From Planomonospora sp. ID67723 (GTDB lineage Bacteria > Actinomycetota > Actinomycetes > Streptosporangiales > Streptosporangiaceae): 64,000 nucleotides of DNA. Below, in pieces: positions 35,808-38,956 of the stretch. Position 1 is the stretch's first letter. Every line of letters begins with the position of its first letter. The stretch is from positions 1,454,001 to 1,518,000 of the forward strand of contig NZ_JABTEZ010000001.1 of NCBI RefSeq assembly GCF_015711605.1. Reading direction: 5' to 3'. The notes beneath the pieces are model-generated. The model was not told the origin of the DNA and did no database searches. It was given only the letters and a program-made list of their open reading frames with translations. The translations under genes and the position numbers were made by a program.

Positions 35808-36779
35808 TCAGTTCACGACGTCGAGCGGTTCCCCGCCGCCGAGGTGCTCGGTCACGTTCCGCACCGCGGCGAGGGCGATGCGGACCACGGCCTCCCGGGT
35901 CACGCCTCCGGCGTGCGGGGAGAGCACGACGTTCGGAGCCTTCAGCAGGCGCAGGCCGGGGCCGGGGGGCTCCGGGTCGTAGACGTCGAGCCCCGCCCCG
36001 GCGAGACGGCCCTGCTCCAGGGCGTCGGCGAGGGCGTCCTGGTCGATCAGCGCGCCGCGGGCGGTGTTCACGACGAACGCGGTCGGTTTGAGCAGGGCCA
36101 GCCGGCCGGCGTCGAGGAGGCTGCGAGTCGAGTCGTTCAGCGATGCGTGCAGGCTCACGTAGTCGGAGACGCGCAGCAGTTCCTCCAGCGGCAGCCGCCG
36201 CGCGCCCAGGCGCTCCTCCACCTCCGGGGCGGCGGGGGTGCGGGAGGCGTACACCACGGACATGCCGAACACCGCGGCCCGGCGGGCGACCTCCCGGCCG
36301 ATCGTCCCCAGGCCGACGATGCCCAGGGTCTTGCCCGACAGCTCGGTCAGCGAGCCGCGCAGCCGGGGCAGGGCCCACTCGCCTCCGGCCAGGGCGTTGT
36401 GGGCCGGGACGAGCTGCTTGGCCAGGGCGAGCATGAGCGCGAAGGTCTGCTCGGCGACGCTGTGCAGCTCGGCGTCGCTGGAGCCGATGGTGCACACCGG
36501 CACGCCGTGCCGCCTGGCCGCCGCCACGTCGACGTGCTCGTAGCCGTGGCTGGAGCACTGGACCAGCTCCAGGGCGGGGGCGGCGTCGAGGTGGCCGGCG
36601 GTGACGGGGACCAGGGCGGTGAGGACGACGTGGGCTTCGCGCAGCGCCTCGGGGTTCTCGTCGAGGGTCTCCACCACGGTGACCTTCGCCTGCCCGGGGA
36701 AGAGGGCGCCGAGCGCCGACCCCGCCTGGCGGCCGCCGACATGGGGCGCGACGGCGACCAGCACGTTCTTGAGAGACAT
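35808..36779 (-). CDS. D-isomer-specific 2-hydroxyacid dehydrogenase family protein
   Basis: A 323-residue NAD(P)-dependent dehydrogenase. The Rossmann motif is LGIVGLGTIGREVARRA. Catalytic residues follow in order: Arg in VVNTARGALID, Glu in DVYDPEPPG and His in LSPHAGGVT. The substrate domain includes LVQCSSHGYEHVDVAAARRHG. ATG at 36779 follows GGAGCCTCC; it is preferred to the upstream frame. It starts 62 bases after the stop of the nucleotidase gene and could be the last gene of that operon. Substrate unknown (glyoxylate, phosphoglycerate or another 2-keto acid). Confidence 0.9.
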   Translation of the reverse strand: MSLKNVLVAVAPHVGGRQAGSALGALFPGQAKVTVVETLDENPEALREAHVVLTALVPVTAGHLDAAPALELVQCSSHGYEHVDVAAARRHGVPVCTIGSSDAELHSVAEQTFALMLALAKQLVPAHNALAGGEWALPRLRGSLTELSGKTLGIVGLGTIGREVARRAAVFGMSVVYASRTPAAPEVEERLGARRLPLEELLRVSDYVSLHASLNDSTRSLLDAGRLALLKPTAFVVNTARGALIDQDALADALEQGRLAGAGLDVYDPEPPGPGLRLLKAPNVVLSPHAGGVTREAVVRIALAAVRNVTEHLGGGEPLDVVN

Positions 36780-36841
36780 GGGGGAGGCTCCTGGCGGGTC
36801 GGTGATTCCACGGCGTTTCTCCGCCGCTTCCGCGGCGTTCT

Positions 36842-37630
36842 TCACAGGGCGTCCGCGGCGCTCTCCGCGGTGGAGGCGGCGAGGGCGGCGATGACCGGGG
36901 CGGAGAAGGCGACGGAGCGCCTGACGGCCCCGGGCCCCGGGGCGGTGACGGAGCGCCGGACGGCGCCGAGGTCCGGGACGGTCCAGCGGACGGGAACCCC
37001 GGAGGCGGCACCGGCGGCCCGGGAGGCGCGGGCGCGGTCGACCCAGCAGAAGTCCACTCCGGCCTCCCGCGCGCAGCCGCCGTCGCCCGCCAGGGAGTCG
37101 CCGACCATCAGGGACTCGTCGGACTTGGCCTCCAGCAGGGAGAGGGCGTGGTGGAGCAGCGCGCCGTCCGGCTTGCGCAGGCCGACCTCGGGCGCGATCA
37201 CCACGTGCTCGAAGAACCTCCCGATGCGCGTACGGCGGAGCTTGGCCCGCTGCACCTCGGCGATGCCGTCGGTCACCAGGGCCAGCCGGAAGTGCCGCGA
37301 GAGCCGCCGCAGGGCCCTGTTCGCCTCCGGGAAGAGGGCGACGTTGCGGCCCAGGGCCTCCTCGAACGCGGCCGCCACCGCGGGTCCGGCGCCCAGCCGG
37401 GCCCAGCGTTCCAGCCGCAGCTCGGCCAGGTCGATGCGGCGTTCGCGGTAGGCGGCCCAGAGGGGTTCGTTGGCGGCGTGGAAGTCGTGCAGGAAGGCTC
37501 TCAGCCCGCTCCGGAAGAAGCGGTGGTGAACCTCACGAAGCGCACCGGCCTCGGTCCGGGCGTAGTCGACCACGGTCCCGTCCAGATCGACCAGCAGGAC
37601 CCGGTAACGACTCTCCCTCGCCGAGCTCAT
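36842..37630 (-). CDS. HAD hydrolase resembling YjjG pyrimidine nucleotidase
   Basis: A 262-residue HAD phosphatase. Motif I is VLLVDLDGTVVDY (Asp15 nucleophile, Asp17 acid), motif II LVTDG, motif III VGLRKPDG and motif IV MVGDSLAGDGG. The cap helix segment HAANEPLWAAYRERRIDLAE and the late RWTVPDL recall E. coli YjjG, a nucleotidase acting on dUMP, dTMP and non-canonical pyrimidine nucleotides. The C-terminus (about 225-262) has an added Val/Arg/Ser/Ala-rich tail with two near copies of PGPGAVRRSV-like sequence. ATG at 37630 overlaps the end of the TS-like gene by 98 bases, which implies strong coupling. Confidence 0.85.
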   Translation of the reverse strand: MSSARESRYRVLLVDLDGTVVDYARTEAGALREVHHRFFRSGLRAFLHDFHAANEPLWAAYRERRIDLAELRLERWARLGAGPAVAAAFEEALGRNVALFPEANRALRRLSRHFRLALVTDGIAEVQRAKLRRTRIGRFFEHVVIAPEVGLRKPDGALLHHALSLLEAKSDESLMVGDSLAGDGGCAREAGVDFCWVDRARASRAAGAASGVPVRWTVPDLGAVRRSVTAPGPGAVRRSVAFSAPVIAALAASTAESAADAL

Positions 37631-38252
37631 CGTGCTCCGACAGCCGGAGGATCTCCTCGACTTTCTCCACATCCACGGCGTAGATGTGTGGAACGTCGAC
37701 GAAAACCCTCATTGACCCACATCCCACTTCGAGATCGTCCGCGACCTCGCACTGGATACTACGCAGCGGGACGTAGTTCAGGTAGCAGGTGAAGGCATTC
37801 TGCGAGCGGAATGTCGCGGTCATCACCAACTTGCCCTCGCGGAGCCGGAAGGCCAGGCTGGTCAGACAGGGCACCGCGTCCGGCTGCTCGCCGGGCACGG
37901 TCAGTGAGATCCAGCCGCTTTTGCTGTACGGCTTCGCGCGCAGCATGTCGGTGACCCAGCGGAGCTGGTCCACGCCGAGGAGCCGGCGGAGCCGGCCGCC
38001 GTAGCTGTACTTGAAGGGCGGCACGACGGTGACCTCGTTGAACTTGCTGGCGTACAGCGAGATCTTCCCCGAGTCGCCGTGGGTCTCCAGGACGGGGTCG
38101 TCCCAGCCGAGATCGTCGATCTCGAACAACACCGCCGGAGCCTCGATGACCGGGCCCCGGTCGTCGTCGGCGGGCCTGCCGTACTCCCTTATGTAGCGCA
38201 TGAGCCAAATCCAGGTCTCCCCACAGGACGCGAATCGGAGGAGGTCTGCCAT
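37533..38252 (-). CDS. Divergent thymidylate synthase-fold protein
   Basis: A 239-residue protein of the thymidylate synthase/dCMP hydroxymethylase fold. Aligned by eye to ThyA: YGGR (84-87), the nucleophile Cys129 in DAVPCLTSLAF, Arg149-Ser150 in TATFRSQN and the HIY motif (189-191). Key changes: the SRR phosphate-clamp segment is YSKS (109-112), the His after the Cys is Leu, and the folate-contacting Asp after Arg-Ser is Asn. The Cys and HxY suggest a living C5-pyrimidine transferase with altered substrate. The ATG overlaps the upstream stop by one base (TGATG), and the 3' end overlaps the YjjG-like gene by 98 bases. The last ~35 residues are low-complexity. Confidence 0.8.
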   Translation of the reverse strand: MADLLRFASCGETWIWLMRYIREYGRPADDDRGPVIEAPAVLFEIDDLGWDDPVLETHGDSGKISLYASKFNEVTVVPPFKYSYGGRLRRLLGVDQLRWVTDMLRAKPYSKSGWISLTVPGEQPDAVPCLTSLAFRLREGKLVMTATFRSQNAFTCYLNYVPLRSIQCEVADDLEVGCGSMRVFVDVPHIYAVDVEKVEEILRLSEHDELGEGESLPGPAGRSGRDRGRLRPDRGRCAS

Positions 38253-38956
38253 CAAGTCTCCACATTGGGGAAATGGAACGGGTTCTGCGGGAGCCTGCGC
38301 TGGCGCGAGACGTTGGCCCGCACGTAGTAGACGAAGTAGTGGACCGACGCGAGCAGGGCGATGACCACCATGAGCACGGCCGGGTTGGGGTCGGCGCCGA
38401 ACAGGCCGAGCGTGCCGACCGCGATGTAGGCGCTGTTCACCACGGAGAGCATCAGCACGTTGATCCCCGGCCAGGCGAGCGGCGCGTAGGTCTCCGGGTA
38501 GCGCGGGTCCACCGGCAGGTTCGGGGACCAGCCGAGAGCGGAGAAGTGGTCCTTGAGCTGGACCACGTAGAGCAGCCGGAAGTTGTTGAGCGCCCGGGCG
38601 GTGCGCATGTGCGCGTTGACCGCCTCGATCAGCCGCAGGAACGGCAGCACGCTGAGCAGCCCGAACGCCACGACCGTCGCGAACAGGTATTCCGGGATCT
38701 TCTCCCACGAGGTGAGCGCCAGGGGATCGACCACCTGCGTGCTGGCCAGGGCGATGGCGGCGGCGAAGGGCGCGGAGAGCAGGCTCATGGAGAGCCGGGT
38801 CATCTTGAGGCGTTCGTCCTTGGCCGACAGATAGACGTTGTAGGTCCCGGTGAAATCGACGGACACCAGTTGCAGGAACTCCTTGGAGTCCACGGGCAGG
38901 TTGTCGAGTCTCTCCGGCAGCGACTCCGCGCTCATACGCGGCAACATCTTCTTCAT
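38252..38956 (-). CDS. Four-helix membrane protein, first gene of the TS-like operon
   Basis: A 234-residue protein with a ~50-residue charged cytosolic start (VDSKEFLQLVSVDFTGTYNV) and two hairpins of membrane helices: about 55-77 and 89-111, then 162-187 and 192-213. The loop between hairpins is cytosolic and basic (NAHMRTARALNNFRLLYVVQ). No family is recognised. Its TGA shares a base with the ATG of the TS-like gene, so the two are translated together. ATG at 38956 (MKKML) is used; no clear ribosome-binding site is seen, and ATG 38935 or GTG 39013 are possible. It may anchor or feed the TS-like enzyme (inference). Confidence 0.75.
   Translation of the reverse strand: MKKMLPRMSAESLPERLDNLPVDSKEFLQLVSVDFTGTYNVYLSAKDERLKMTRLSMSLLSAPFAAAIALASTQVVDPLALTSWEKIPEYLFATVVAFGLLSVLPFLRLIEAVNAHMRTARALNNFRLLYVVQLKDHFSALGWSPNLPVDPRYPETYAPLAWPGINVLMLSVVNSAYIAVGTLGLFGADPNPAVLMVVIALLASVHYFVYYVRANVSRQRRLPQNPFHFPNVET

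Follow-up and report, generated by a model that had tools for sequence, protein, structure and literature searches.

To our knowledge, the relatives of thymidylate synthase (TS) are soluble enzymes that serve DNA precursor supply, phage base modification or nucleoside antibiotic synthesis. The locus described here lies in a 64,000-nucleotide stretch of the genome of Planomonospora sp. ID67723 (contig NZ_JABTEZ010000001.1, positions 1,454,001 to 1,518,000; this whole stretch is called the window below) and encodes a divergent protein of the TS fold (TS-like), preceded by a membrane protein (MEM) and followed by a HAD-type protein resembling the nucleotidase YjjG (HAD).

Two described proteins are of particular relevance for comparison. 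In MilA, the mildiomycin cytidine monophosphate (CMP) 5-hydroxymethylase, Lys133 replaces Arg126 of TS and helps to select ribose, Ala176 replaces Ser167 of TS, and Asp186 marks cytosine, uracil enzymes having Asn at this position (excerpts of PMC5175136). AfhB, the deoxycytidine monophosphate (dCMP) hydroxylase of phage HY126, binds flavin adenine dinucleotide according to the PDB titles of its structures (9iqu, 9iqc), and 5-hydroxy-dCMP synthases are listed as TS superfamily members in phages (excerpts of PMC13390438). As regards folate, Asp169 of Escherichia coli TS binds the pterin, and a highly conserved catalytic Glu (Glu60 of T4 dCMP hydroxymethylase, Glu58 of E. coli TS, Glu68 of MilA) protonates the folate cofactor (excerpts of PMC6400193). 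According to the PDB title of entry 1bjg, the D169N mutant of TS does not promote cofactor ring opening.

We tentatively prefer the explanation that TS-like is a membrane-coupled protein, not dependent on folate in the conventional way, which would act on uridine or deoxyuridine monophosphate (UMP or dUMP) at C5/C6 via Cys129.

Pairing of the MEM and TS-like genes

All 48 MEM genes found among 297 sampled genomes of the order lie beside a TS-like gene, on the same strand and at a distance of -1 to 114 nt. TS-like genes (E < 1e-60) were present in 103 of these genomes, 48 outside and 55 inside genus g38 (Actinomadura/Spirillospora, judging by the named loci); none of the 55 g38 genomes is among the 48 with MEM. 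Across the phylum (296 genomes) MEM was found only in the genome of the window itself, a second row being a chance match with six stops. A named collection was also used, composed of 80 loci kept of 83 relatives, found by a scan with two peptide patterns, which is not a full census. MEM adjoins TS-like in 48 of these loci (L083-L130; in two frames in L103 and partial in L104), and 15 of the 80 carry the complete trio, so the arrangement, first noticed in a single strain, is not limited to it. The nearest named locus is that of P. venezuelensis (92% TS-like identity).

The three genes overlap as the sequence-only reading had described, and they are transcribed in the order MEM, TS-like, HAD (Table 1). 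The shared base of the TGATG junction likely couples the translation of MEM and TS-like, and in 45 of the 47 named loci measured the gap between these genes is -4 to +12 nt (the remaining two have 69 and 90 nt). The overlap between TS-like and HAD is 98 nt with the HAD start at the ATG at 37630 and 140 nt with the upstream ATG at 37672. An overlap of 98 nt was seen again in 12 of the 13 HAD-bearing loci of Planomonospora, Planobispora and Streptosporangium (80 nt in the remaining one) and is therefore not due to chance. The ratio of nonsynonymous to synonymous substitution rates (dN/dS; three relatives for each gene) indicated purifying selection on MEM (0.15-0.39), TS-like (0.25-0.29) and HAD (0.34-0.42).

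Table 1. Features of the MEM, TS-like and HAD locus, in positions of the window.
Feature	Position	Strand	Description and basis
MEM	38252-38956	minus	234-aa membrane protein; open reading frame (ORF), hydropathy, AlphaFold model, 43-member alignment
TS-like	37533-38252	minus	239 aa, core of about 205; PF00303, TIGR03283, structure model, structure matches
HAD	36842-37630	minus	262 aa, YjjG-like pyrimidine 5'-nucleotidase (predicted); TIGR02254, HAD motifs
TGATG junction	38250..38254	minus	MEM stop and TS-like start, one common base
Overlap of TS-like tail and HAD start	37533..37630	minus	98 nt; TS-like tail predicted to be disordered there

The surroundings of the pair were examined using gene calls from a simple ORF finder. 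In two lineages of metagenome-assembled genomes (MAGs) and in Actinoallomurus the unit stands beside ilvC (KARI) or serA (phosphoglycerate dehydrogenase), and in Actinomadura TS-like is usually found a few genes after ilvC, immediately before serA. The surroundings of the pair are different in Nonomuraea, Streptosporangium and Planomonospora: MEM and TS-like stayed together while their neighbours changed. A functional tie to ilvC/serA was considered and rejected as the main idea, because of the other surroundings found in Nonomuraea and Streptosporangium.

The TS-like protein and its nucleotide site

TS-like was recognized by PF00303 (30.9 bits, cut-off 24.3), and it matches the methanogen TS profile TIGR03283 with 63.1 bits, below the cut-off of 174.55. 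Its structure is predicted confidently (predicted local distance difference test, pLDDT, of 87.8), with pLDDT below 50 at residues 212-238, i.e., in the tail that overlaps HAD. The model matches the structures of AfhB, MilA and TS proteins with Z-scores of 18.4-20.9 (18.4-19.2 for the TS proteins; differences under 1 count as ties). By sequence, its best match in the PDB is MilA (E 1.3e-6), the best TS following at 6.1e-4. Sequence profile and structure place TS-like close to MilA and support the TS-fold protein with a nucleotide site that had been proposed from the sequence. PolB, at that time also named as a relative, has to be removed from the list, as it is a homologue of ThyX (excerpts of PMC5003785).

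The characteristic residues of TS-like are Lys111, Cys129, Arg149-Ser150-Gln151-Asn152, Asn159 and His189-Ile-Tyr191. Residue counts were taken over all 80 named loci (48 with MEM and 32 without), and in every one of the 48 MEM-bearing loci R32, K111, S112, C129, R149, S150, Q151, N152, N159, H189 and Y191 are conserved. The sequence-only reading was correct about Cys129, Arg149-Ser150, His189-Ile-Tyr191 and the Asn152 that takes the place of the folate Asp. With canonical ThyA the protein shares the TS fold and the catalytic Cys (C129 in 48/48). The two-Arg clamp (SRR) of ThyA is absent, K111 and S112 standing there in 48/48; it had been described as lost, and its second Arg is indeed gone, but Lys111, Arg149 and an Arg32 shifted by one column from the corresponding Arg of TS and MilA remain, so that it should be called reduced. 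Of the traits of MilA and BcmA, the Lys at the Arg126 position is present (K111, 48/48), and neither the Ala in place of Ser167 nor the Asp at the cytosine position was found (S150 and N159, 48/48). The base-recognition position is held by Asn159, which speaks for uracil, not cytosine, as the base. The methanogen TS profile prefers Asp at position 152 (by 3.3 bits), Arg at 111 and 112, and Asn over Asp at 159.

A different picture was obtained for the 32 loci without MEM (L131-L162, Actinomadura and Spirillospora). K111, N159 and Y191 are changed in all of them, R32 is lost in 27 and C129 in 14, where it is replaced by Ala (nine loci) or by Asn, Ser, Thr, Pro or a gap (one each). Arg149, Gln151 and His189 are retained, and position 152 is occupied by Asn in 25 loci and by Asp in seven. 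The variety of the Cys129 replacements suggests repeated decay in this lineage, in which TS-like, retained despite the lost site residues, may have another, perhaps non-catalytic, role. Because the active site has decayed where MEM is absent, MEM and TS-like most likely work together, and the 32 loci form a natural set of mutants that makes this coupling testable.

Folate-handling residues and phylogenetic placement

The folate Asp is replaced by Asn152 in all 48 MEM-bearing loci. In an alignment of 26 rows, Asn stands at this position in the 8/8 rows of the TS-like family and the 4/4 rows of AfhB, and Asp in the 14/14 other rows. The segment bearing the catalytic Glu is gapped in all eight rows of the TS-like family and in both archaeal-type relatives; 15 of the other 16 rows have the Glu, and phage phiM9 has His. 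Since the folate Asp is Asn152 and the Glu segment is missing, ordinary folate chemistry is unlikely, and the missing segment also weakens the earlier notion of an enzyme like MilA. The invariant acidic residues that remain are Asp31, Glu37 and Asp52, and another acidic residue could replace the missing Glu. Glu37 was considered as the catalytic Glu of the family and rejected: it is located in another strand, and in the alignment TS-like has no Glu-bearing segment. The model of TS-like aligns to residues 1-226 of the 264 of E. coli TS, and the C-terminal segment that closes over the folate was not found. This loss is not decisive, because T4 dCMP hydroxymethylase has no C-terminal tail and yet uses folate (excerpts of PMC6400193).

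The folate position was further surveyed in 33 ORFs, three of which belong to the TS-like family (L190 and L199 with Asn; L203 misread). Among the 30 others, Asp was found in 26 by pattern and in two by eye (L183 and L198, with the printed sequences MRAND and MRGND), Asn in one (L177), and one was misread (L197). L177 (G804:C20:35367-35948, in a genome of the same class) is an open frame of about 600 aa. Its C-terminal part is TS-like, with the motif RSHN and Asn in place of the folate Asp, and its N-terminal part may resemble the methyltransferase subunit MtrA; L177 is possibly another non-canonical TS-like enzyme. As this fusion protein also has Asn, the residue is a sign of divergence from canonical TS and not of flavin in itself.

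In a tree of the 26 rows, the TS-like family groups with L036 and L038 (support 96/98), and the AfhB group is separate (100/97); the branches of T4 CH and of several phage TS are long, the deep forks are weak, and only two rows are of the archaeal type. Descent of TS-like from AfhB, considered for the shared RSQN motif, was rejected on account of the separate branch. Another candidate relative of AfhB, the 'TS' of PKO111, turned out to be a T4-like true TS. L036:1236-1913 (G056) and L038:725-1381 (G002), from genomes that belong to the same family, encode TS-like proteins about 220 aa long; TIGR03283 is their best profile (77 and 81 bits, respectively), and His replaces the phosphate-binding Arg166 (AHSID motif) in both.

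Alongside TS-like, its sole PF00303 match, the genome of Planomonospora sp. ID67723 encodes ThyX. A housekeeping role of TS-like is unlikely because ThyX is present and there is no other PF00303 gene, and an ordinary TS for DNA synthesis was rejected as the principal explanation on the same grounds. Among 60 sampled genomes, eight had a strong TS-like match and seven of these have ThyX, which is split in two of them; in the eighth, G027, there is a further PF00303 gene (46 bits). A full, high-scoring ThyA was found only in G068 among the seven genomes checked for PF00303. In G006:C22, G016:C9 and G018:C669 the ThyX match falls into two pieces of the same long open frame, a pattern that an intein in thyX would produce.

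The membrane protein MEM

The MEM protein of the window exceeds the cut-off of no family in Pfam or NCBIfam. Its top Pfam match is DUF5368 (E 0.057), which was also weakly matched by 12 of the 43 aligned MEM members (best E 1.1e-5). From hydropathy and an AlphaFold model of middling confidence (pLDDT 74), four hydrophobic regions were read as predicted transmembrane segments at about 52-76, 87-113, 164-188 and 192-213, and the protein can be described as four-helical, as had been expected. A crude count over the 43 members gave five segments in 27, four in 15 and three in one; the cases with five are taken as long segments that were split. Conserved motifs of the alignment are RxARAxNNFRLLY, WSPNLPxDP and an Arg-rich C-terminal tail, which we place, by prediction, in the cytosol.

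No PDB entry matched MEM by sequence at better than E 2.8, and Foldseek gave no match to the model at E <= 0.001. The top VIA structure match was a designed four-helix pore (Z 9.1, root-mean-square deviation (rmsd) 5.1, 184 aligned residues). Such matches to generic helical bundles indicate a common arrangement only, and MEM may belong to an unlisted family.

The HAD protein and other genes

HAD scores 136.2 bits with the YjjG profile TIGR02254, below its cut-off of 159.9, and carries the HAD motifs DLDGT, TDG, RKPD and GDSxxxD (window protein and an alignment of eight). The likeness to YjjG noted earlier extends to the HAD subfamily and its motifs. HAD is adjacent in the 15 named loci of Planomonospora, Planobispora, Streptosporangium and two MAGs. 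Orthologues (>360 bits) were detected in four of 16 genomes searched, only where adjacent to TS-like; the other 12 contain no close copy, their paralogues reaching at most 82.5 bits. The trio had been presented as one unit; the MEM-TS pair proved to be the core shared across genera, and HAD is an accessory. Because the HAD-bearing loci include two MAG lineages, the trio is probably old and was lost in places.

A 2-hydroxyacid dehydrogenase gene (window 35808-36845, minus strand) directly follows HAD, with a 4-nt overlap when counted from its first GTG, and a similar gene lies within two predicted genes downstream in four of seven Planomonospora/Planobispora loci (L083-L088, L090).

Other TS-type genes were encountered in the searches. 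L018, L019 and L020, each from an actinomycete and about 330 aa long, carry MRSQD and an Asp at the base position; they are similar to the MilA-type cytidylate hydroxymethylase and are possible nucleoside-antibiotic genes. On the conjugative IncHI1B plasmid pEC2_1-4 of E. coli (L021:11469-12744), a divergent thymidylate synthase adjoins MazG, and a metallophosphoesterase gene is located two genes further on.

Proposed function and alternative explanations

According to the preferred explanation, MEM and TS-like would work as a single unit on the cytoplasmic side of the membrane. TS-like, probably a dimer as in the TS family, would bind a uracil mononucleotide (UMP or dUMP), its Cys129 would attack C6 as in thymidylate synthases, and the base would be altered at C5 without the normal use of methylene-tetrahydrofolate. 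MEM would anchor the enzyme at the membrane, and pass on the product or respond to it. HAD, where present, would provide an optional last step, dephosphorylating the product or clearing side products. Such a locus might make or clear a C5-modified pyrimidine, as was suggested from the sequence. A more specific version, which we regard as unlikely, is an enzyme of the TS fold that uses no folate and depends on a partner integral to the membrane. It might be, e.g., a C5 hydroxylase or de-modifier of UMP/dUMP that is dependent on flavin or free of any cofactor; at the membrane it would make or clear a uridine nucleotide modified at position 5, working without the catalytic Glu of the family and having acquired its Asn for Asp independently of AfhB.

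Several points weigh against the preferred explanation. The missing catalytic Glu segment would speak against catalysis as well as folate use, and for this reason the odds were lowered, and those of a nucleotide sensor (see below) raised. A one-residue gap has to be crossed to align Asn159 with the base residue, and the sugar appears ambiguous, Ser150 being of the deoxyribose type and Lys111 of the ribose type. The Asn shared with AfhB is apparently convergent, because the tree sets AfhB apart from the TS-like family. The loci without MEM are a single clade, in which the loss of MEM and that of K111, N159 and Y191 may be one coincidence. Finally, HAD is not adjacent to the pair in 33 of the 48 loci with MEM.

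The main rival, doubtful when taken by itself but nearly as likely as the preferred explanation, is a nucleotide sensor. In this case TS-like would bind or covalently trap a uracil nucleotide and gate or switch MEM, in signalling or in stress or defence. The strict pairing, the changed folate Asp, the missing Glu segment and the sparse occurrence (48 of the 297 genomes of the order) would all suit a sensor, whereas the invariance of Cys129 in the 48 loci with MEM would not. PADLOC 2023 gave no match for MEM, TS-like or HAD of the window or for the 43 MEM members, which counts against the sensor and leaves a separately considered anti-phage defence system unsupported. Also contrary to a sensor, a single-protein scan of viral contigs detected no close TS-like relative, and the sole close match in a plasmid collection was an 11.85-Mb Nonomuraea record.

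It is distinctly unlikely that TS-like depends on folate like other enzymes of the TS superfamily (as a TS or a uridylate/cytidylate hydroxymethylase) and tolerates its changes, with MEM as a mere anchor. Its closest PDB sequence match, MilA, belongs to the folate family, the methanogen TS profile gives the highest score for its closest neighbours in the tree, and these neighbours also have no Glu segment, so that archaeal-type TS may do without it. Against this stand the Asp at the folate position in all 14 other non-AfhB rows and most of the 30 further ORFs, the preference of the methanogen TS profile for Asp, and the ThyX genes of the window's own genome and of seven of the eight sampled genomes with strong TS-like matches.

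Slightly less probable again is a clean-up function, in which Cys attack at C6 would remove C5 substituents from damaged or foreign uracil nucleotides, with HAD as a house-cleaning nucleotidase and MEM as a transporter. YjjG acts on non-canonical pyrimidine derivatives (excerpts of PMC8475336), and chemistry of this kind would not need folate; the sequence gives it no direct support, and HAD is not beside 33 of the 48 pairs. Adjacency without function, i.e., neighbours retained by chance or operon inertia, agrees with the long-standing position close to ilvC and/or serA that several lineages show but is very improbable, given that the pair is intact amid the differing surroundings of Planomonospora, Streptosporangium, Nonomuraea and Actinoallomurus and that the active site decays in loci without MEM.

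A branch of the TS fold paired one-to-one with a membrane protein not described before would widen the range of this fold. The loss of the folate Asp and the Glu, with the Cys and the nucleotide site kept, would point to a hitherto unrecognized pyrimidine metabolite or signal in actinomycetes.

Comparison with known systems

No description of a trio composed of a TS-like protein, a membrane protein and a nucleotidase was found among the matches listed in a literature search of open PMC papers. HAD belongs to the same HAD subfamily as YjjG and has the motifs intact, but it scores below the family cut-off and stands beside TS-like only in some lineages. The methanogen-type TS profile differs from TS-like in its preference for Asp152, Arg111 and Arg112, whereas L036 and L038 resemble the TS-like family in that the Glu segment is missing in both.

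In AfhB the TS fold is likewise compact (for 9iqu, Z 20.9, with rmsd 2.4 over 193 residues), and the Arg-Ser-Gln-Asn motif, with Asn in place of the folate Asp, is shared with TS-like. Unlike TS-like, it has Asp, not Asn, at the base position, and it retains the SRR clamp and the Glu-bearing segment.

MilA (5b6d, 5b6e and 5jnh) is equally close in fold (Z 20.9, rmsd 2.2, 199 residues for 5b6e), and both proteins have Lys at the Arg126 position and keep the Cys and the His-x-Tyr motif. The excerpts of PMC5175136 mention no membrane partner of MilA. In contrast to TS-like, MilA keeps the folate Asp (MRAND), the catalytic Glu68 and a long C-terminal region, and it has Ala where TS-like has Ser150 and the cytosine-type Asp where TS-like has Asn159.

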